The position numbers and the translations under genes were made by a program. From positions 141,897 through 205,896 of the forward strand of contig WIXG01000115.1 of assembly GCA_009869945.1 (NCBI GenBank): 64,000 nt of DNA. The letters are read 5' to 3'. The notes beneath the pieces were generated by a model. It made no database searches. It saw only the letters and a program-made list of their open reading frames with translations, and was not told the origin of the DNA. Of the stretch, positions 19,601-63,440 are shown piece after piece. This DNA is from Mesaphorura yosii (Eukaryota > Arthropoda > Collembola > Poduromorpha > Tullbergiidae). The stretch's first letter is position 1, and every line of letters starts with the position of its first letter.

Positions 19601-22600
19601 AAGGGACACGATAAACCAAACATTTTTATTACTATTGCTGAAGTAAATTACAACTAATTGCATTTAATTTTTAGCAACATAAGTCTGCGCTCGTGATGTT
19701 CTATGCACCATGTAAGTCGTGTACTTGTGGTCTGGCCTGAATGTCTGAATTCCAGGCCGAACCGGTTATGCTTTGATATCCGACGTTTTATTTCTGTAAT
19801 TTGGAATATTATAGGGTGTGGACACTGCAAGCGAATGAAGCCAACCTACGCTTCAGCTGCGACCAGATTGAAAACGCTGGAGGTAAGAGCACGGCTGTAA
19901 AAGCCATGACGTACAACACACGAATGCACTCAATATGGAGAAATATGCTCTCATTCAAGTGCATTTCTGCGATAAATTAGTTTTTTGCAATTTTTACGAT
20001 TTGTTTCATAAAATCGAGAAAGATTGGGATTGAGGTTATGAGGATGACTCATGACTCATGACGTGGTAACTTTGATGATGATTAAAGACATTTGTGACCA
20101 TGAAACCATGATTTACGATTTACGCCCTTCGTTCCAGATTGACGGCATTTTGGCGGCCGTGGACGCTACGAAAGAGCCCAGCATCGCAAAGGAGTTCAGC
20201 ATAAATGGCTATCCCACCGTGAAACACTTCAAGGACGGTGAATTTAACTTTGATGTGAACCTCAGAGAAGAGGAACCGATTATCGAGTTCATGAAGAATC
20301 CCACCGAACCGCCTCCGCCACCACCACCTGAAAAATCCTGGAGTGAGGAAGAATCGGCCGTTGTTCATTTGGATGAAGAGAATTTCAAATCCATACTAAA
20401 ACGAAAGAAGCACGCTCTGGTCATGTTCTATGCACCATGTAAGCTAAACGCAATTCATTTCTACTAATTGTATGAGGTAGCCTTTGATGTGCTAATGGAA
20501 ATTATGCAACAATTAATTTAATAATCGTATTCACTTCAAAATGTCGTGTCGTGAAAGTTTGTTTCGGTACACTTTCCTGCTAAAACTTTATTCGGTGGCC
20601 GCATGCTTTGGGAAATTATAACACATTGCTTAACGTTTACTCTTTACCCTCTCTCTACCACACATTAAATGAATATCACCAAAGCTAAAGCTTGTCTTGT
20701 TTATGAAGTTATCTGACTTCTGCGTTCAATTCTCCCCATTTGGCACGGCTTTGTTTCACGGCTAAAATTAGCTTCTAATAAAATGCCACGACGAGTAGTT
20801 TAGCTGAGCGCGGCTGGCTTCAGCTTAATGAATGAGTAACTGAGAATGAGATCGCAATATCGCAATCGTGCATCACGACGCGGCACGACAGGTGATGCCG
20901 ATGCCGACTAATGATTAATCCTACTCTCAGCTAAGCGCTAACTTGTGCCTTATCATTATTGCCATTGCAGGGTGTGGTCACTGTAAACAAACGAAACCCG
21001 AGTTCACAGCTGCCGCGGAAGAGTTGAAGGACGATCCGAAAATTCTCTTCGGGGCTGTCGACTGTACGGCGCCAAATAATGAGAAGCTCTGTTCCAAGTA
21101 TAATGTCCAAGGATTTCCAACAATCAAGCATTTCTACTATTATGACAAAGAGGAGCCGACCACGTACGACGGTGGCAGAACGGTAAGGAAAGAAAGTGAC
21201 TTCCGACGTGTGCCAATGTCAGGCTTCGGAATTTTATGGCGTGTGTCTCCTCAGCAACTAAATTAAGGCGCACGATTTATTGCCGAATTCCTCGAATTAC
21301 GAACAGCATCGAGTTATTTGGGACAATGTATAGGAATTTTTATTAGTTTTGGTCCGCGGCCGCCTTGTATGTGTAAACCTTCCTTCAGTTTGAACTTTGG
21401 TCAAAGTTGCACTTACGTTTGTTCCTTTCTCGTTAAATTTATCTCCATCTTCAAATTCAATCACTCCGGACCTGACGCCATGCTTCCTTTCGGTATGCTC
21501 ATCCGTTTCTTCGGAATCTTCGTAAGTTTCACTTCCCACTGACGCAATCTTATTTTGACTTTCCATCCGTGAGAGGTTACATCACGAAGGCGGTCTGTTT
21601 AATGGATTAACGAAATAAAGGTTTATTAGGGCGCACTGTGTAGGTTTTAGTTGCAGGTTGCTTTCCCGAATTTTCCAAAAGATTTCAGTAGCCAGTAGCG
21701 AGCAACCTGGCAGCGCGGTTGGTCTACTAGAACGGTACCTCAGTTAAGGTTAGTTTATGGTTCACTATTACTTTAATAATGATATTACGAACTACGACAG
21801 GGTACGACCACCAGTGAAAGAATTGGCTTTGATGCCTAACAAGATTAGTCCAAATTGAAATGAAAAGCAGGACTATTGGTCCTTTACTCTGACGATGCTC
21901 TGGAATACGACATTGGCATTCTTCGGACTGTCATTTCAAGTTTATTTCAATTCAACCTGCGAAGCGCAGTAGTTTTCGTAGAAAGGGGAAGATTTTATTA
22001 GATCAGGCTTTGAGATATTTGAGAAGTGGAAGCAGAAACTGAAGGTCATCTTCATCAAATATTCATTACTGGGAAAAGCCATCTTGAGTCTTTCATTCTG
22101 ATCCTATTAGTCCTTGGGTCAACATATCCATTAAGAAAATATCACTGCACTACTGCGTTCTAAAAAGGGCTCAAATTCATTTAGCGAGAGAACTTATGGC
22201 AGAAGTTTATTAGAGAGCGCGCGTGCCAGTTGGGTGAGTTCCTAAGGGCAATGCTCACGCGTCGCTAATTATTTTGTCCTATTTAGACAACTAAACATAA
22301 TACTAATTGAACGTAACATAACATAACATGATGTTGACAATAATTTCCCACAGATTTCCGAGCTAATTTGAGCGATTTAACATTTCGTTTTCTTTCATGC
22401 TATTTTTGGAACTCGGCGACCCGTCAATACTTCGTGACTCTACTTGGATTGTAAACAACGCAAATCTCTTTCTCTTGGTCGTGCTCGGGCACGAAATGCG
22501 GCTGTTCAAACGCAAACCGAGCAGAAGCAAGACCTGAGCAATGAAGTCACTACAAACCCAAGCGAAAGTGGTCGACGTATGTATACTGATTGGGATGGTC

Positions 22601-34620: not shown

Positions 34621-35720
34621 GGCAGTGTTTATTGTGTAGCACCATTGAAAGGTCGCAGCGCACCGGCTGGAATTCATTCATTTTTGTTCTTCGTGGGGGA
34701 CTAAACCATCGCTCATTACTGCTAATGTGGGCATCCTATGACTGGACCTTATGAATTATTGATCTTGCAAATACATCTTCAAGTTTGAACTGTTTCATCA
34801 CTTTCATTCTTTCCTTGCATTGCATTCTTGAGTGTGGTATCAGTTTGGATCTCCGGAGCCTTGTTCTTGATGACATCCACCACCCATGTCCAACTGTCTC
34901 ACCTAAAATAAATGCTTGACCGTAATTCACTCCGTTCCGTACTTACGATACGATTAAATACATAAAGGATTAAATTCAATGGCACGTTAACTAACCTTAG
35001 CGTTGTTGGTATGTATGTGAAGTCACAGTGTTAAACTCACGCTACCGGCTTCTCGTTTATTTAGTCCACGTAAGTTTTGCTTGTTCAATTCGTATTCACA
35101 CTCTAGCATAAGTCAAGAAGTAGAGTAGAGATGAATCATACAAAGCGTGCGAAATGAAATGCGAAGTACAAAAGTGGTAAATTACCAGCCAGCTACGCTA
35201 CGAGTCAAAAAGCACGTGAGGCTGAGACCTATTCCCACTGGCATTGACCTATTCATGACTCATTCTGTGTACATACACGTACGTATATTCATTGCATGTG
35301 CATTGCGGTTTTGCGAATTAATAATATTTACAGCCACGTTTATTATTGTATCATTCGACTTTACTGCGTTCCTGCTTATGTTAGTAACATTTACCCGCAT
35401 TTCATTGGGCCACATAATGACAGCAGTTTCACAACACAAATGGTATGGCACAAAGGAACGATTCATGTTCATATTCGTCATGGATCCGACGACATAATCA
35501 AGCTACGTTAAACCGTTGAATAGGAAAGACGAAACTCATTTACGCACTTATTTCAGTTGTTATCCAACTTCCGTCCAATTCAAATCGTTCAAACAATACC
35601 CAGAATTTTTTGTCAGGCTAAACCAACTCACTTTCAATCGGCTTTCGGGAGAAGGTCGCTTTGTTTTAGTGTGGCAGTGTGATAATAACCATTTGACTCG
35701 TTTGAGACTCAGCCGTAACA
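34621..35720. other. Intergenic, nothing recognised
   Basis: About 1.1 kb between malectin and the first acyltransferase, both on the plus strand. It probably carries the acyltransferase promoter; no clear element seen. Confidence 0.45.
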
Positions 35721-37670
35721 ATGGAACCGCGTACGCCAGGATACAGAAGGAAGACGACCAACCAAGTAAGGTCAAACTTGGAGACAAGAGCTAGAAGTGT
35801 TCGCGAACTCATCCAATCTCTTCACGGTGACTTGGGCTCGGATTGCTGGAGCTGGATTGCTGGGCCCAAAATGCTGCTCTCATCGCTGCACTCGTCAGTC
35901 AAGCAAATTTTGTCATATAAGCTAGAAAAAATTCTCGTCTTGAGCTTGACGGCAGTTTTGCTCGCAATTCTTCCTTTCGTCTTATTCTTGATCGCCTGCA
36001 TGTTCGTCATTCGTCATGCTGTATCAATTCTTGCAAAGCACTTTCGACCGGATTTGGGAACAATTATTCCCACACGAAGTGCTGGTTTCGCTACCGATTT
36101 GGTGTACAACAAAATTCCCAAATACTCGGTCGTCGTGCCTCTATACGTGAAAGGGCATTTGGGCGTCGGTGATCTCCGCGCACGACTGAGAGAAGTGCTT
36201 GACAAGAAGGACGCAATCAAGGAGCCACGTGCCGGTACAAGTACAAACCCTGAAGATCTGGACACGATATCAGCTCTGAGATATCCGGAACTGAAGCAAT
36301 TTGTATACTCGTGGTTTGGAATCCTGTTTTGGAGGTGGGAACAAAATTTCAAGATTGAAGACCATGTAAACCTTCTCAACGACCGAAGATACGTCGCCAA
36401 TTCTGGAACCACGTTAAACGAAGAAGATCTGGCAAGAATCGGGCAAGATTTTACGACGAAGCCTTACAGAAAAGGACGCAGCCACTGGGAAATATTGTTA
36501 CAGCATCATACGTGTACAGTCACTGGCGAGCCACGCACATTGGTCATTTTCCGTATTCATCACGCTCTCGGCGACGGATTCTCGATACTCAAGTTCTGCT
36601 TGGGAGATTTGTCACAACAGAGCAATCTGCAAGTGCAGGAGACCAAGACACGCTACCCAGAAGTGGTACCATGGCCGTCCGAGCGTGAGTCCGCCGAAGG
36701 ATTCCTCAGAACCTTCCAGCGCGAGCTGACGGGAATAAAAATTTACAAGATGGCAACCTTCACAATTATGGCCATGTACGATTTCGCCAGCGCAGTTATA
36801 AACACATGGGATTTCAATTCTTGGAAACTGCCAGAGAGGAAACTGAGGCACAGAATGAAGCTGGGCGTGACAGAACCGATACCATTGACGAACCTGAAGA
36901 GGATAAAGAATCAGAACCAAATTGCACTCACATCGTTGTTGCTGGCTGCATATGCTGGAGCCTTGAGAAATTATATGGAGGAGAGAAATCGGAGCAGACA
37001 CTCCCAAATACCAATTCCAGATCATGTTCATTGTATGGTCACTCTGCCATTTCCTGGACACTCTGGCAGATTAACAAATCACATGTAAGGATTCATTATG
37101 CAGACCCGTAGATCTTGATTACTTAACTACGAATATTTCTAGGACCGGAACCTTTGTCAAGCTTCCCCTGAATCTCCAGTCGTCGCCAAGAGCTCGACTA
37201 CTAGCCATCAGCCGTGAATTAGAAGCAGCGAAAAGAAGCACATTCCCGACCCTGATATTTTACGGAATCCAAGTCAGTGGGATAGCGCCAGCACCGATTA
37301 CATGGCTTTACTTTGGGAATATTGCACATTCTTGCGCACTGAGTAATTTTCCTGGCCCCGAACATCCCGTAAACTTTGTTGGACATGAAATTCTGGATGG
37401 AAGCTTCACTGCTCGTGTTGGAAATATGCGTAAGTTCAATGGTCATTTTCCATTTTCCATCTTCGACTTCACTATGATTATTATATCAGATTCTTCTGTG
37501 CTTTGATTTCAGCTTTTGTTTTCACTGCGTTGAGCTACAATGGAAATATTCGCCTGGCATTCGGACTAGATGAAGCAATTACCGTAGGCGGGAATGATGG
37601 AGAGTTGGGGAGCAAAATGATGCAAGAGTTGCAGTCATTAGATAAGAATCTCGAAATTGGTAGTCAATAA
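35721..37670 (+). CDS. WS/DGAT-like O-acyltransferase, copy 1
   Basis: Member of the wax ester synthase/diacylglycerol acyltransferase family, which transfers an acyl group from acyl-CoA to an alcohol or diacylglycerol. Three exons (35721-37084, 37143-37429, 37513-37670) give 602 aa. A strong hydrophobic segment at about 71-96 is a membrane anchor. The catalytic signature HHxxxDG is present as HHALGDG at 280-286. The C-terminal part has GNIAHSCALSNFPGPEHPVNF and ends with a segment (FTALSYNGNIRLAF) typical of the WSD C-terminal domain. Introns are 58 and 83 bp. A paralogue at 61.8 kb shares both intron positions. Substrate is unknown; in arthropods cuticular wax or storage lipid is a reasonable guess. 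Confidence 0.9.
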
Positions 37671-40218: not shown

Positions 40219-40968
40219 ATGGCATCGAACGGTCAGCAGCAAGAAAACTTCTCTGGCAATCTGAAACCACTGACACTCGAGAGTCACCGGAATTACAAGA
40301 TTAACAACAACTGCAGCGAGGTCAAGGTTGACAGTAATTGTACGGTGAGCTGCGATAATAATTGCGGCAAGATTGAGCTGGGCCCCAACACAGTAGTGAC
40401 GAGCTCGAACAACAACTGTGGACACATTGTCATCGGAGAGAATTCTACTCTCACGAAAGCCAAGCGGAACTGTGGCAGCATAACAATCGGAGCGAACTCC
40501 ATCGTAAAAAACGTGAACGGCAACTTTGGGAAGATTGACATAGGAGGCCAGTCAGTCGTGCCGGAAATAATCGGGAACTTTGGCCAGATCAAAGTAGGGC
40601 CAAACTGTGACGCGGCGACAAGTCGGAGTAAGACCAATTTTGGACAAATTATGATCGCTGAAGGGGTCGTCGTTCCCTCTGCTACGTCAGTCCAATCGCC
40701 GACAGCACCTGCTCCTGAGGACGGCTTTCAGTTTGGAAAAGGCAATCAAAATGTAAATGGAGTACCAGCTACAGTTGCAACCGGTGATGAGGAGTATCCA
40801 GATCTTGGGACATTCAGTGGAAAGTCAACTTGCTCAATCTGCATGGAGAGGGGTCGCAATATCGCCTTTCTTTGCGGTCACACTTGCTGCTCGACCTGTG
40901 CTGAGGGCATGGTCCTGTGTCACATGTGCAGAGTTCCAATTGAACGCAAAATCAGACTCTACGATTAA
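40219..40968 (+). CDS. Intronless RING-finger protein with 18-residue solenoid repeats
   Basis: A single-exon 249-aa protein. The C-terminus is a C3HC4 RING: C205-x2-C208-x10-C219-x-H221-x2-C224-x2-C227-x6-C234-x2-C237, ending eight residues later in IRLYD. This is the C-terminal layout of E3 ligases of the inhibitor-of-apoptosis, MIB and neuralized groups. Residues 30-150 hold seven repeats of N-[C/F]-G-x-I-x-[I/V]-G-x-N-[S/T]. The Cys/Phe falls at 32, 49, 67, 85, 103, 121 and 141, a period close to 18. The first four repeats use Cys, the last three Phe. Residues 152-200 are a Pro/Ser/Gly-rich linker. Ubiquitin ligase activity is inferred from the RING; I recognise no family with this pairing. 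It converges on the 125-aa gene, with 89 bp between stop codons. Confidence 0.88.
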   Translation: MASNGQQQENFSGNLKPLTLESHRNYKINNNCSEVKVDSNCTVSCDNNCGKIELGPNTVVTSSNNNCGHIVIGENSTLTKAKRNCGSITIGANSIVKNVNGNFGKIDIGGQSVVPEIIGNFGQIKVGPNCDAATSRSKTNFGQIMIAEGVVVPSATSVQSPTAPAPEDGFQFGKGNQNVNGVPATVATGDEEYPDLGTFSGKSTCSICMERGRNIAFLCGHTCCSTCAEGMVLCHMCRVPIERKIRLYD

Positions 40969-41057: not shown

Positions 41058-41435
41058 CTAAATATTTTGTAGCACACCTTCGTCTGAAATATAACCGTGA
41101 TCTTTCGCCAGTTGCTCCTTTTTCTCGTACAAGAAGTATTGCATGAGTTTGTCCAGTCCGCTGTCTTTCAGTCCGGAGCTGTACCCTCGCAGAAATGCAC
41201 GGACACACCCATGTGAGCGCTGCTCCTCCTTGGTGACATTCTTCGGTGCATTCTCCGACACCCACCGTTTGTCCGGACGCTCCAGGCCCAGTATTCCAAG
41301 TTTCCTTCCGAATTCGGTGATTTTCCTTCGCTTAGGGCACTCGTAGCCTTCCTGTGCTCCTTGTGCGAGCCAGATAAATGTGAACACAGTAAAAACTAAC
41401 AGACTCAAAGGGGTCGCAATCTTGTGGACCTTCAT
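41058..41435 (-). CDS. Small secreted protein, unknown family (125 aa)
   Basis: Intronless frame with a clear signal peptide (MKVHKIATPLSLLVFTVFTFIWLAQG, written here as residues 1-9 basic-polar and 10-26 hydrophobic). The mature protein is about 98 residues, strongly basic in its first part (CPKRRKITEFGRKLG), with two cysteines that could form one disulfide. It has a possible N-glycosylation site at NVT. The C-terminal half looks helical (LMQYFLYEKKEQLAKDHGYIS). I recognise no family. Tail-to-tail arrangement with the RING gene means their 3' untranslated regions probably overlap. Confidence 0.72.
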   Translation of the reverse strand: MKVHKIATPLSLLVFTVFTFIWLAQGAQEGYECPKRRKITEFGRKLGILGLERPDKRWVSENAPKNVTKEEQRSHGCVRAFLRGYSSGLKDSGLDKLMQYFLYEKKEQLAKDHGYISDEGVLQNI

Positions 41436-49411: not shown

Positions 49412-50903
49412 TTAGAAGAACGCTTTAATACTTTTCTTGCCTGACTCCAAGTAAGGATCAATCTTCAAGTCTTCGACAGCATCCAGGAACTCTTTCTCAT
49501 CTCCGGCCGTCCCACTTATGTTTGTACTGCTTCCACAACTGCAGCAGCTGCTCGCGAGGCTGGAGTGGCTTCCGTTCAAGTAGTTGCGAGTAGGAACTGG
49601 AAGCCCCAGCGTGGCCATTCCGTTGCCGTTGAGCGCTCGCGTCGAGCCGGACGGCGTTCTCACAATGATTGCAGTCTCAGCCTCGTCTTCTACGCTCAAA
49701 CTGATTACGTAATGCAGGATTTTCGATCTCGTACGGCTGTACGAGTTGTCGAATTTCAGGACGTATTTTCCTGGTTTCTCGATTACATGCGAACCGGACT
49801 GCTTGCCCTTGTGGGAATTCACTCGCTTAAGCTCGAGCAGATCATCACCTTCGAACGTGAGTCCAAATGCAAGGTCATACCCATCTGTGTAGTACGCCCA
49901 GTTTAACACAGGGTCTTGCTGCAGTTGCAGCTCGCTGATGTCGTACTCAAATGTCAAACACTCTCCGGCGGCGATTTTCAGCGAAATCCATTCCTGGCCG
50001 TAGTCATCGTAGACTGTATCCAGGCGTCGCATGAAATAGCGTGGCAGAGGCTCCTGAAACCATGATTCCGAACAGAATTCGTCGGATCCCGGCCGAGTTC
50101 CGCCCCAGTACGGAGGCAGTACCTCTTCCGGCATCAGCTTCTTCAGCACGCCCAGCCATTTGCTGCGGTCGCTCCCGTAAATATGAATCTTAGAAATCGT
50201 TTGCGATGCGAGCACTGGCTTGATGATAGAAAACAGGGCGTTGAATATACGTGGAGCATTCAAGATAATTCCAACCTTCAAAAGTTCTGGATAATTCGCT
50301 TCCACCATTCGCCCGAGTTCCAGAGCAGCTTGAACTAGGAATCGATTTGTGAATTGGTTGTACCGGAATCCTTCGCAGTCGACGATGACGATGCCATTAC
50401 TCGCGTTTTGTACGTTGGCAATGCTGACGCAGTATTCAATCGCTTGATACAGATAACGAAGTGCAGGAACAAATTCTCCACATTCAATCGCCCCCCTTTA
50501 TGACAGAGAAAAGAATTATTTAGCAGTTGCTTTAAAGATTCTAAGATCAACACCAACACCGCAGCTTCAATTTCTGGACTCACTTTATTTCGTATTGTCC
50601 AAGCGGGAAGAGGAACACTGGCGCTCCAACGTAATCGTTCCCAAGATATATGTAAGGCGCGTACACCTTGGCGCTCCTCCACTCCAGCAGTTGGTCCGCC
50701 TGATTATTTCTCCTCCAGACTAAATGACGCCTGAGCATCTTTTCCGCCTTCACAACATTCAGTCCACGTGCACGGAGCCAGATGACCAGTTGCGCGTCCG
50801 TTTTCGGGTAAAACTTCTGCACGCGCTTGCGGAACTCGACCAGCTTAGCTCGTTCCGCTTCCGTGAACTCCTCGATTGCTGTGTTATTTTTGAACTTCGA
50901 CAT
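49412..50903 (-). CDS. SEC14-like CRAL-TRIO/GOLD protein, copy 1
   Basis: Cytosolic lipid-binding protein of the SEC14L group, which exchanges phosphoinositides or carries tocopherol-like ligands. Two exons (50584-50903, 49412-50495) give 467 aa. The order is a CRAL-TRIO N-terminal helical region (LVIWLRARGLNVVKAEKMLRRHLVWRR), the CRAL-TRIO lipid pocket (GIVIVDCEGFRY, then NYPELLKVGIILNAPRIFN), the gate end PPYWGGTR, and a C-terminal GOLD β-domain (GECLTFEYDI to GKYVLKFDNSYSRTRSK). Intron of 88 bp with donor AAA|GTGAGT, acceptor AAAG|GGGG. A closely similar paralogue lies 2.5 kb upstream on the same strand. The C-terminal tail after the GOLD domain is Gly/Ser/Cys-rich. Confidence 0.92.
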
Positions 50904-53449: not shown

Positions 53450-54844
53450 TCAGACTGGATTTTTAATCTCCAGGGCTGCTTCTGATTCATCTTCTGCGTT
53501 GTGGCTGTTTGCATGGCCGTTCCCAGTGTACCCGTGTTTCTTGTCATTCAGTTCATTCATCGCACTCACGCTCAGTAGCCCGTTGCTTGCCTTCCTGCCG
53601 CCACCGCAGCGGCTGGATACGTCAACCTTGGCCTTGCTGCTGTTTGTCGCCACAGGCACGCTCGTCAGATTGATGCAGTAGTGGATGAACTTGGCCCTGG
53701 CTCGGCTGTACATGTTATCAAACTGCAGAATATATTTCCCAGGCTTATAAACTTTCAGCGACCCCGTCGTTTTATTAGACTCGTGGGATTCTATACGAGC
53801 GTACTGAACGAGTTCGTCCAGGTCTTCATCGTCTTCACTTCCATTCGTGCTCGTTTTTATGGTTCTGCTTTTGTATAGGATGCTGAACCCGATGTCGTAG
53901 CTGTCCGTGTAGAATCCCCATCGCAAGACGCAGTCGGCGCTTCCCTTCTTGTAGTCGTCTAGCACGTACTCCAGCGTCAAGGTATCGCGTGCCGGGATCT
54001 TCATTAGAATCCATTCTTCTCCATATTCGTCGAAGGACGATGATATTTTCTTCATAAAGTACCGTGGAAGCGGTTCCTGATACCACGCCTCGGAGCAGTA
54101 CTCGTCCGACCCTGAGCGGGTACCGCCCCAGTACGGCGGCATGATATTTCTCGGGATGACCTTGAAAATAGCGTCTGACCACCGGTTTGCGTCGTCATTG
54201 TAAATATGGACTTTTGCGAGCGTGCGCGAGTGGAGGAGCGGTTTGATGAGAGAGAAGAGCAAGTTGAATATTTTTGGTGCATTGATAACGTAAGATGCCT
54301 TAAGCACTTCAGGGTAGTTTGAATCGAATACGCGGAGCACTTCGAGGATTCCCTGCACTAACGAGCGGTTTGTCAGCTGCCGGTACGTGAATCCATCCAT
54401 GTCGAATATCACTGAGCCTTGGTACTTGCCCGACGCGTTGGCCGTCGTGACAATGTTGTCCAGGCATTGAAAGACGAAGCGAAGCGACGGGACGAGGTCC
54501 CCGACTTCGACGCAGGCTCGCAGGTCGCATTTCCCAAAGGGAAGCAGGAAGACTGGCTCCGAGTCGAAGTCGGTCCCAAGATACAAGTACGGCAAGTAAA
54601 CTTTCGGCGAACGCCACAGTCGAAGCTGCTCGAGTTCATTATTTCTTGCCCAGATGAGATGACGGCGGAGCATCTGCTCGGCCTTGTCCACGTTCAGGTC
54701 GCGGGCTCGCAGCCATGTGATGCATTTCTCGTCGCATTCCGGGTAAATGTGGTGAACACGAGCCTTGAATTCCTGCAGTCTGAGTTTCTCCACCGGCGTG
54801 AAGCAGAAAGGCGAAGCTGTGTGATTGTTGTAGGCGTGGGCCAT
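53450..54844 (-). CDS. SEC14-like CRAL-TRIO/GOLD protein, copy 2, intronless
   Basis: Same domain order as copy 1 in one uninterrupted 464-aa frame. The CRAL-TRIO N-terminal region carries CITWLRARDLNVDKAEQMLRR. The lipid pocket contains SVIFDMDGFTYRQLTNRSLV and YPEVLKASYVINAPKIFN, then PPYWGGTRSGSDEYC. The GOLD domain ends at GKYILQFDNMYSRARAKF. The position where copy 1 has its intron (LPFGKCDLRA here, FPLGQYEIK there) is continuous. The tail is Ser/Lys- and Asn-rich. Loss of the intron fits retroposition or simple intron deletion. A TATA-like box sits upstream at 54899. Confidence 0.93.
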   Translation of the reverse strand: MAHAYNNHTASPFCFTPVEKLRLQEFKARVHHIYPECDEKCITWLRARDLNVDKAEQMLRRHLIWARNNELEQLRLWRSPKVYLPYLYLGTDFDSEPVFLLPFGKCDLRACVEVGDLVPSLRFVFQCLDNIVTTANASGKYQGSVIFDMDGFTYRQLTNRSLVQGILEVLRVFDSNYPEVLKASYVINAPKIFNLLFSLIKPLLHSRTLAKVHIYNDDANRWSDAIFKVIPRNIMPPYWGGTRSGSDEYCSEAWYQEPLPRYFMKKISSSFDEYGEEWILMKIPARDTLTLEYVLDDYKKGSADCVLRWGFYTDSYDIGFSILYKSRTIKTSTNGSEDDEDLDELVQYARIESHESNKTTGSLKVYKPGKYILQFDNMYSRARAKFIHYCINLTSVPVATNSSKAKVDVSSRCGGGRKASNGLLSVSAMNELNDKKHGYTGNGHANSHNAEDESEAALEIKNPV

Positions 54845-54898
54845 TGTTGCAATGGAAGGCGAGCTTGAAATACGTTCAGTACACGGAGCTTTGACTTG

Positions 54899-54906
54899 TA
54901 TTTATA
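54899..54906 (-). promoter_or_regulatory. TATA-like box of SEC14-like copy 2
   Basis: TATAAATA on the minus strand, 55 bp before the ATG. This would leave a short 5' untranslated region. Confidence 0.45.
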
Positions 54907-61021: not shown

Positions 61022-61776
61022 TTTAATTTCGGTCACCACACCGGCAGGAAATATTTTTGGTACGAAACCCGGCGATTTATCTGTGAAACTGATCAAGACA
61101 GAAAAATATAGTCTGTAATGATTTTATGCGCACCAGCCGTAGTCGTAAGTCGTAAACAAAGGTGCATGAGCTTGAATTACTTTGATCATAAACATGCATG
61201 CAATCAAAAACCAGTTTCAGTTTCATTTCGATTTCGTGTCTTGAATCGAACAATTTATTGCGACGGACGCCAGGTGGTGAATTCCATTCTCCTGTGATCT
61301 GTGAATTCTATTGAGCAAGGTCAATAATCATCAAGATCATGAACGCGCATTGCGTATTTTCAGCTGTGGAGATGAAAAAATGGCAACGTTTTGGGCTTAC
61401 CTCACTTAATGTGCAACAAAGGCTCCGATTTTGTTTCACGCGACAGATAATGGCGAGGAGAAACCTGAGAGGGAGCTTACCTAATTTAAAAATTTTTACA
61501 CGAAAACAATTGATGTCAAAGTCCCACAAGTTGGTCGGTTAAAGAATTATCAACGGTTTTGGTTTTAGTTTTTAATTTTAATTGTGGTTCCTAGAAACCT
61601 CAATCAGTGTCTTTGTTGGGTGATTGTCCATTCTTGAGGAAGATGCAGTAACATAAACGCTTTCACAAAGGTTAGTTTAGTTGTGTTAAATTACAAAATT
61701 AGAGCTGAATAGAGCCTAATTAGCTAATTATGAGAGCATACGATTGCCATAGGTTCCTGGCTGGTGCTGACCGGTG
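61022..61776. other. Divergent upstream region of protease and acyltransferase copy 2
   Basis: Between head-to-head starts. No coding frame of interest and no clear core promoter element seen. Confidence 0.45.
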
Positions 61777-63440
61777 ATGCTGTGTGGTGAGGATGTGAAC
61801 TACGATCAGATTCGATTTTTGATCATGTCCGCCTCTGCCGTACATGAAGTTCTTCAAGTTTTAACAATTTTGGGTTTTGTATTGATTTTACCTATTGCTG
61901 GACTTGTCATTGCATTCCTCAAGTGCATCAGACTCACAGCGTTACTTTTAGCGAAGATATATAGAAGAGACTTGAGAGATTTGGTGACGGGACGAAGTTC
62001 TGGATTTGCACTTGACATTTACTACAACGAGTCGCCAACCTTGCCTATTTTAGTCACGATTCATTTAAATGGTGTTGTCTCCTTGCAAGGCCTACAAGGT
62101 GAGGTTTGGAGAGCGCTGATGCACAGAGGCTTAGATGGTCATCGACTAACTCAGCATATCACGTCCTGGTTGGGGTTCTTCTTTTGGACTACGGAATCCA
62201 ATTTTCAAATTCAAGACCATGTCAGTTTGATCGAGCTGGAAAAAAGCATGAGGTTTCGTGATCAAGTCCATCAAATTCAAAACGAATTGATGTCAAAACC
62301 CTTCGAAACAAATCGAAGTCCGTGGAAATTGTACCTGGTTAGGAGTAATGAAGAATCAGTCCTGATTTTGCATATGCACCATGCATTGGGGGATGGATAC
62401 TCGATTCTTAATTTTCTTGTCAAGGATCTCTGCTGTTTGAACACTCCGGAATCAACGGCAACGAATCGACCTCATCAGAGTTTTAAGTCTAGTCTTAATA
62501 TATTTGTCAAGCTTCTGTCGTTTCCAATCAGAGCAGCAAACGATCTGGTGAAGGCATTGGATGGAATTGGACCTCACAATTTGTTTCCAACAAGCAAAAA
62601 GGCGAGCACTGCTCCAAGCTTTAAAACTTTTGTATCTGACCCAATCCCCTGGAGTACCTTCAATGAAATGAGGCAGAAATGTCATGTCACTTTCACGTCA
62701 ATACTTGCATCAAGTGTGGGCGGTGCACTCCGAGATGTTGTGCTGGAAAATGGTCCCGAGGCCGAGATCCCTGAGAGTGTAACGTGCTTCACATTGCTAC
62801 CCGTACCTGGACACGCTGAAGCAGGATTTGATAACCACATGTGAGTGATCAAGAAAATCAAAAGCTAGCACATTGACATTGTACACATTGTAATTGACTA
62901 ATCACTAAAAATCCTTGTGCAGAACCGGGTATCTCTTCCAAATTCCGCTGACTAAATTGTCACCAACCACTCGCCTCTTTGTAACAGAGAAAAACGTCCA
63001 ACATTGCAAAGAATCGACGTTTCCAACCATATTCTTTTACCTGTCAGAAGTGGTTGGCCTACCATTTCATTGGTTCACCAAGCATTTTTTTGGAAATGCG
63101 CTGTCAACTGTGATTGCAAGTAATTTTGTTGGTCCGCCAAGTGCCATGAGCTTCCAGAACCATCAAGTGACTGAATGCTCGTTTGTTTCTGGTCTCGGTC
63201 CCGGCAATACTTGTAAATTTTATCGACAATACTGGGTCAGTCTATTACAAGTCGGTGCTCATCTCAATTCTGGCTTAATTTTTAACAGGTTTTGCAATCT
63301 CATCTCTGAGCTATAATGGGAACGTTCAGATTGGGGTCACCGTCAACCGTTCATGTTTGCCAGGTGAAATCTCTCCTTCGGTGTTTGCCAAGAGGATGCA
63401 GAGTGAAATTCACTCTTTTACTCATCAGCTAGTCAAATAG
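61777..63440 (+). CDS. WS/DGAT-like O-acyltransferase, copy 2
   Basis: Same family and layout as the gene at 35.7 kb. Exons 61777-62840, 62923-63212 and 63289-63440 give 501 aa, about 100 residues shorter, mostly at the N-terminus and in the linker before the acyl-binding motif. A membrane segment (VLTILGFVLILPIAGLVIAF) precedes the catalytic HHALGDG at residues 201-207. The conserved segment FQIQDHVSLIELE and the C-terminal ISSLSYNGNVQIGV match copy 1. Both introns sit at the same positions and phases as in copy 1 (after DNHM/NHM, phase 2, and before the SYNG block, phase 1). The frame is open upstream to GTG at 61774; ATG at 61777 is the natural start. Confidence 0.9.

Follow-up and report, generated by a model that had tools for sequence, protein, structure and literature searches.

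What kind of protein is encoded by a short single-exon gene in which an 18-residue repeat runs into a RING finger, and where might its two parts have come from? The gene lies in a 64,000-nucleotide stretch of the collembolan Mesaphorura yosii (hereafter the window: contig WIXG01000115.1, C115 in our numbering, positions 141,897 to 205,896 of the forward strand), where it occupies an intact open reading frame (ORF) at 40219..40968 on the plus strand, stop codon included, with an in-frame stop codon two codons upstream of the ATG. Its 249-residue product, which we call the window protein, has one known paralogue of the same layout elsewhere in the genome. The reading that we favour, with moderate confidence, is that it is a RING E3 ubiquitin ligase in which a RING of the Mindbomb type has been fused to a substrate-binding or scaffolding solenoid.

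The repeat itself is clear. The first-pass annotation placed the ORF and its RING correctly, and also the residues that mark the units (Cys at 32, 49, 67 and 85; Phe at 103, 121 and 141): these seven positions are spaced by 17, 18, 18, 18, 18 and 20 residues, each is preceded by Asn and six of the seven are followed by Gly. The motif originally proposed, N-[C/F]-G-x-I-x-[I/V]-G-x-N-[S/T], was too tight as written, since it is matched strictly by two units only (starting at residues 66 and 84), whereas the looser form N-x-G-x-[ILV]-x-[ILVT]-[GA] is matched by six of the seven; when residues 1-160 were shuffled 10,000 times, no shuffle contained it more than twice. The period of about 18 residues is equally plain from self-similarity at lag 18 (z 8.6; best lag matched by none of 2000 shuffles) over residues 25-155, a stretch picked after the repeat had been seen. 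Unit 1 (residues 30-47, 40306..40359) is degenerate and carries Cys-32; it is followed by units 2 (residues 48-65, 40360..40413, Cys-49), 3 (66-83, 40414..40467, Cys-67), 4 (84-101, 40468..40521, Cys-85) and 5 (102-119, 40522..40575, Phe-103), by a 20-residue unit 6 (120-139, 40576..40635, Phe-121), and by a degenerate unit 7 (140-157, 40636..40689, Phe-141) that is modelled with low confidence, all of them on the plus strand.

What has been conserved within this array can be judged from the paralogue, a 283-residue protein encoded on contig C494 at 20821-21672. It was found in a search of 93.0 Mb in 1127 contigs; our genome searches were made exon by exon, and the counts they yield are lower bounds. 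Over the repeats the two proteins share 36% identity and over their RINGs 44%, and each has at its C-terminus a complete RING with all eight ligands. When ten 18-residue units were aligned, five per paralogue with two of the seven omitted from each, Asn stood at position 1 and Gly at position 8 in all ten, Gly at position 3 in nine, and Ser, Thr or Cys at position 11 in all ten, while positions 5, 7 and 13 were nearly all aliphatic. At position 2 the five units of the window protein have C, C, C, F, F and those of the paralogue S, R, A, R, T, so that the stacked Cys ladder beside a Phe ladder that was suggested earlier is peculiar to the window copy and is not a shared feature; the conserved ladder is Asn, and neither Cys nor Phe. 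The codons differ for 32 of the 44 identical repeat residues (and for 13 of the 20 identical RING residues), which suggests that the two copies stem from an old duplication with the repeat maintained. A stretch ahead of the repeats, NLKPLTLESHRNYKIN (residues 14-29, 40258..40305, plus strand), is also well kept between the paralogues. In the linker between repeat and RING (residues 158-202, 40690..40824, plus strand), which is modelled with low confidence, little is kept: 9 of 51 aligned residues (150-200) are identical.

The second part of the protein, at residues 203-243 (40825..40947, plus strand), is a C3HC4 RING finger of the Mindbomb RING3 type, with all eight ligands in the order C-x2-C-x10-C-x-H-x2-C-x2-C-x6-C-x2-C and a PF13920 score of 30.3 bits (cut-off 27); the RING of the paralogue scores under the cut-offs. 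The best solved relatives of the window RING are MIB1 RING3 (E 1.3e-9) and, close behind, BIRC7 (E 1.6e-9), and when it is aligned to MIB1 RING3 its C-terminal tail, IERKIRLYD (40939..40965, plus strand), resembles the end of that domain. Elsewhere in the genome the best match is on contig C17 (210621-210758, 65% identity over 46 residues), where MIB_HERC2 is matched twice on that strand, 3-4 kb farther upstream (206672 and 207177), and where RING2 and RING3 form one open frame of 220 codons that matches MIB1 RING3 at 5.4e-14. The MIB_HERC2 matches, taken with the match to MIB1 RING3, make this gene the probable Mindbomb of the animal; four further MIB_HERC2 matches are found on C2, C38 and C145. 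No branch is well supported in a tree built from 15 RING rows, in which the closest row to the window RING, both in path length and in identity (62% over 48 columns), is Mindbomb RING3. The window protein carries a Mindbomb-type RING but does not qualify as a member of the Mindbomb family: its RING is like MIB1 RING3 in sequence, ligand spacing and tail, but its whole ORF has no match to the MIB_HERC2, ankyrin and second RING domains of Mindbomb (Pfam scan, E <= 10). The RING of the IAP (BIRC) proteins resembles it as well (4auq), but the same kind of scan gives no BIR match.

Further RINGs of the same kind occur on C264 (57% identity) and C373 (41%). In the former (L022 2146-2593) the first zinc-binding Cys reads Tyr, and an 18-residue stretch before the RING, in another frame (NVGALTLSGNASYTLNNN), resembles the beginning of the window protein at a weak E of 0.25; the locus may contain an intron that went unrecognised, or else be a copy in decay. 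The latter (L023 1926-2204) is a short Mindbomb-type RING ORF with all eight ligands, in which low-stringency tblastn detected no repeat.

How the repeat folds was addressed with two single-sequence AlphaFold2 models, that is, by one method. Both predict a beta-solenoid for the repeat region (residues 8-160: mean pLDDT, the predicted local distance difference test, 75.7; predicted template modelling score 0.71), and the central proposal of the first-pass annotation, a solenoid-like 18-residue repeat joined to a C-terminal RING, is borne out to that extent. The handedness that it assigned is another matter. It had called the 18-residue period one coil of a left-handed helix; the models fit right-handed structures and the weak sequence matches lean left-handed, and the predicted solenoid may have either hand, more probably the right. 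The models superpose on right-handed helices, bactofilin among them, at 2-3 Å (on tapirin at 2.2 Å over 143 residues and 2.6 Å over 153 residues), and both fit left-handed helices at about 11 Å only.

These sequence matches are the ground for the alternative that has to be weighed most seriously, namely that the repeats form a left-handed hexapeptide beta-helix, taken over from a protein of the acyltransferase type and joined to the RING. Like the window protein, left-handed hexapeptide acyltransferases have coils of 18 residues and an I-G-x-x-[S/T/C] face, and a profile of the repeat matches 21 PDB sequences to E = 10, of which 13 are hexapeptide proteins, including all of the top eight (best E 0.0012). 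The paralogue scores 17.3 bits against Hexapep (E 0.0037), weakly matches the rmlA_long, glmU and lpxA models, and has an hmmsearch score reached by 14 of 1000 controls; in hhalign against six hexapeptide frames of the same genome, 2 of 150 column-permuted controls reach the score. Every one of these matches is nevertheless under its curated cut-off (27 bits for Hexapep), the hhalign probability is just 6.4%, over 25 columns, and the window protein itself has no Hexapep match in Pfam scans to E = 10 and an hmmsearch score that 105 of 1000 controls reach. The start of a hexad is usually aliphatic in left-handed hexapeptide helices. In all ten aligned units one hexad per coil starts with Asn, so the Asn-led face of the window repeat does not fit, and the modelled hand is the opposite one. 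A hexad-signature test did not discriminate: 482 of 1000 controls reach the score of the window protein, 0.33, and 56 of 1000 that of the paralogue, 0.47, against 0.20-0.41 for the six hexapeptide frames and 0.24-0.29 for nine bactofilins. On balance we consider a captured left-handed helix unlikely, though its probability is not negligible.

It might also be argued that there is no solenoid at all, the repeat being a flexible or loose array, the model an AlphaFold2 artefact, and the RING acting alone or dimerising with Mindbomb RING3. Bias of AlphaFold2 on repeats is documented in excerpts of PMC11795689, and Foldseek searches with our models gave no match at E <= 0.001. Yet the repeats discussed in those excerpts are perfect ones, whereas the units here have diverged, and both paralogues keep the pattern of Asn at 1, hydrophobic residues at 5, 7 and 13, Gly at 8 and a small residue at 11, which leaves an artefact of this kind decidedly improbable. 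As for a polymer-forming scaffold derived from bactofilin that clusters the RING, a kinship also raised at first pass, the resemblance lies in the modelled right-handed short-coil helix (2.0 Å over 100 residues on 6rib, many other helices superposing as well or better) and does not extend to sequence, where Pfam, hhalign and hmmsearch speak against such an origin and make the idea very improbable: PF04519 is unmatched in both paralogues in Pfam scans to E = 10, hhalign against nine bactofilins gives a probability of 0.26% with 52 of 150 permuted controls reaching the score, and the two hmmsearch scores, no better than chance, are reached by 632 and 367 of 1000 column-permuted controls. A bactofilin search of the genome itself gave one sub-threshold match elsewhere, of 18 bits.

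For a ligase built from a Mindbomb-type RING and a solenoid, the steps can be sketched as follows. The array would fold into a parallel beta-solenoid, compact and with some seven coils, more probably right- than left-handed. It would be the rigid arm that binds the substrate or acts as a scaffold, and the RING would bind E2-ubiquitin, probably as a dimer through its C-terminal tail; related RINGs dimerise through the tail. Among ligase components with helical arms, FBXO11 is the F-box protein of an SCF complex, with longer coils and no RING of its own; KCTD9 is linked to cullin ligases. In the parts of PMC8825234 that bear on it, the CASH domains of FBXO11 are described as right-handed beta-helices important for substrate recognition, a precedent for ligases that recognise substrates through a beta-helix, with the difference that the window protein has its own RING. 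KCTD9, according to a portion of PMC8699099, combines BTB with a beta-solenoid of pentapeptide repeats; it shares the beta-solenoid with the window protein and differs by its pentapeptide repeat and by BTB in place of the RING. For MIB1, a passage of PMC6713736 states that RING3 alone is required for ubiquitination of the substrates characterised so far.

The absence of an intron had been taken to allow retroposition, or horizontal acquisition of the N-terminal part. Neither is borne out. Lack of an intron is weak evidence for retroposition because in the probable Mindbomb, too, RING2 and RING3 lie in one open frame, and because the paralogue seems to hold a leader intron of 99 bases; there is, by eye, no run of A longer than five within 90 bases after the stop codon of the window ORF. 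The putative intron is a GTAAG...CAG segment on C494 (L020 3211-3309), read by eye and ending 12 bases ahead of the paralogue ATG, and it is likely that the paralogue does carry it. As to horizontal acquisition, scans of prokaryotic and viral collections, which reach close relatives only, turned up no relative: a prokaryotic contig collection gave 17 pattern matches of which none was confirmed, and a viral origin was set aside after the whole protein gave no pattern match and the repeat alignment gave 16, none confirmed. Among BFVD structures there was no match at E <= 0.001 (best 0.026), and PHROGs gave weak matches only (best E 0.018, for the paralogue). Weak matches to AVR-Pik_HID (E 0.08-0.15), ribosomal eL8 (0.15) and PDB chains of RPGR and KMT5B were also discarded. 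Base composition is not decisive (window ORF G+C 0.489, and 0.544 at third codon positions; window 0.427; paralogue 0.600). Most likely, a Mindbomb-type RING exon was joined to a solenoid-coding segment, and the fusion would then have undergone the old duplication.

Several other features of the window and the genome were recorded along the way. Convergent with the RING gene is a 125-residue ORF with a hydrophobic N-terminus (41058-41435, minus strand), which has no Pfam match at E <= 0.001. Two coding stretches resembling wax ester synthase/DGAT lie on the plus strand at 35706-37088 and 61771-62844, the second scoring 41.4 bits against PF03007 and the first 15.4, under the cut-off of 23.6; adjacent CRAL-TRIO plus GOLD coding stretches on the minus strand (49412-50497 and 53450-54901) are apparently tandem copies. 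Exact TTAGG arrays, typical of arthropod telomeres, account for 21 overlapping matches on contigs C900, C1051, C1061, C1070 and C1114, and the telomere pattern of tardigrades was looked for and is absent.

Taken as a whole, the window protein is a genuine and uncommon-looking pairing of domains assembled from known kinds of parts, probably a RING ligase and not a new kind of system. Among the papers listed by searches of open-access literature, no title or abstract opening describes a fusion of a RING with a beta-helix, solenoid or hexapeptide repeat. It is tempting to go further and to see a new class, an animal RING ligase with an Asn-ladder 18-residue beta-solenoid as substrate arm or self-assembling scaffold and a RING captured from Mindbomb, able to pair or compete with Mindbomb, but we hold this to be rather improbable. 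If the repeat is truly a solenoid, the protein would be a ligase complete in one chain of some 250 residues, its arm rigid and stackable, and would be a simple model in which to study how the geometry of a solenoid places substrates. And if its RING pairs with that of Mindbomb, it could tune the ubiquitination of Notch ligands in this animal.
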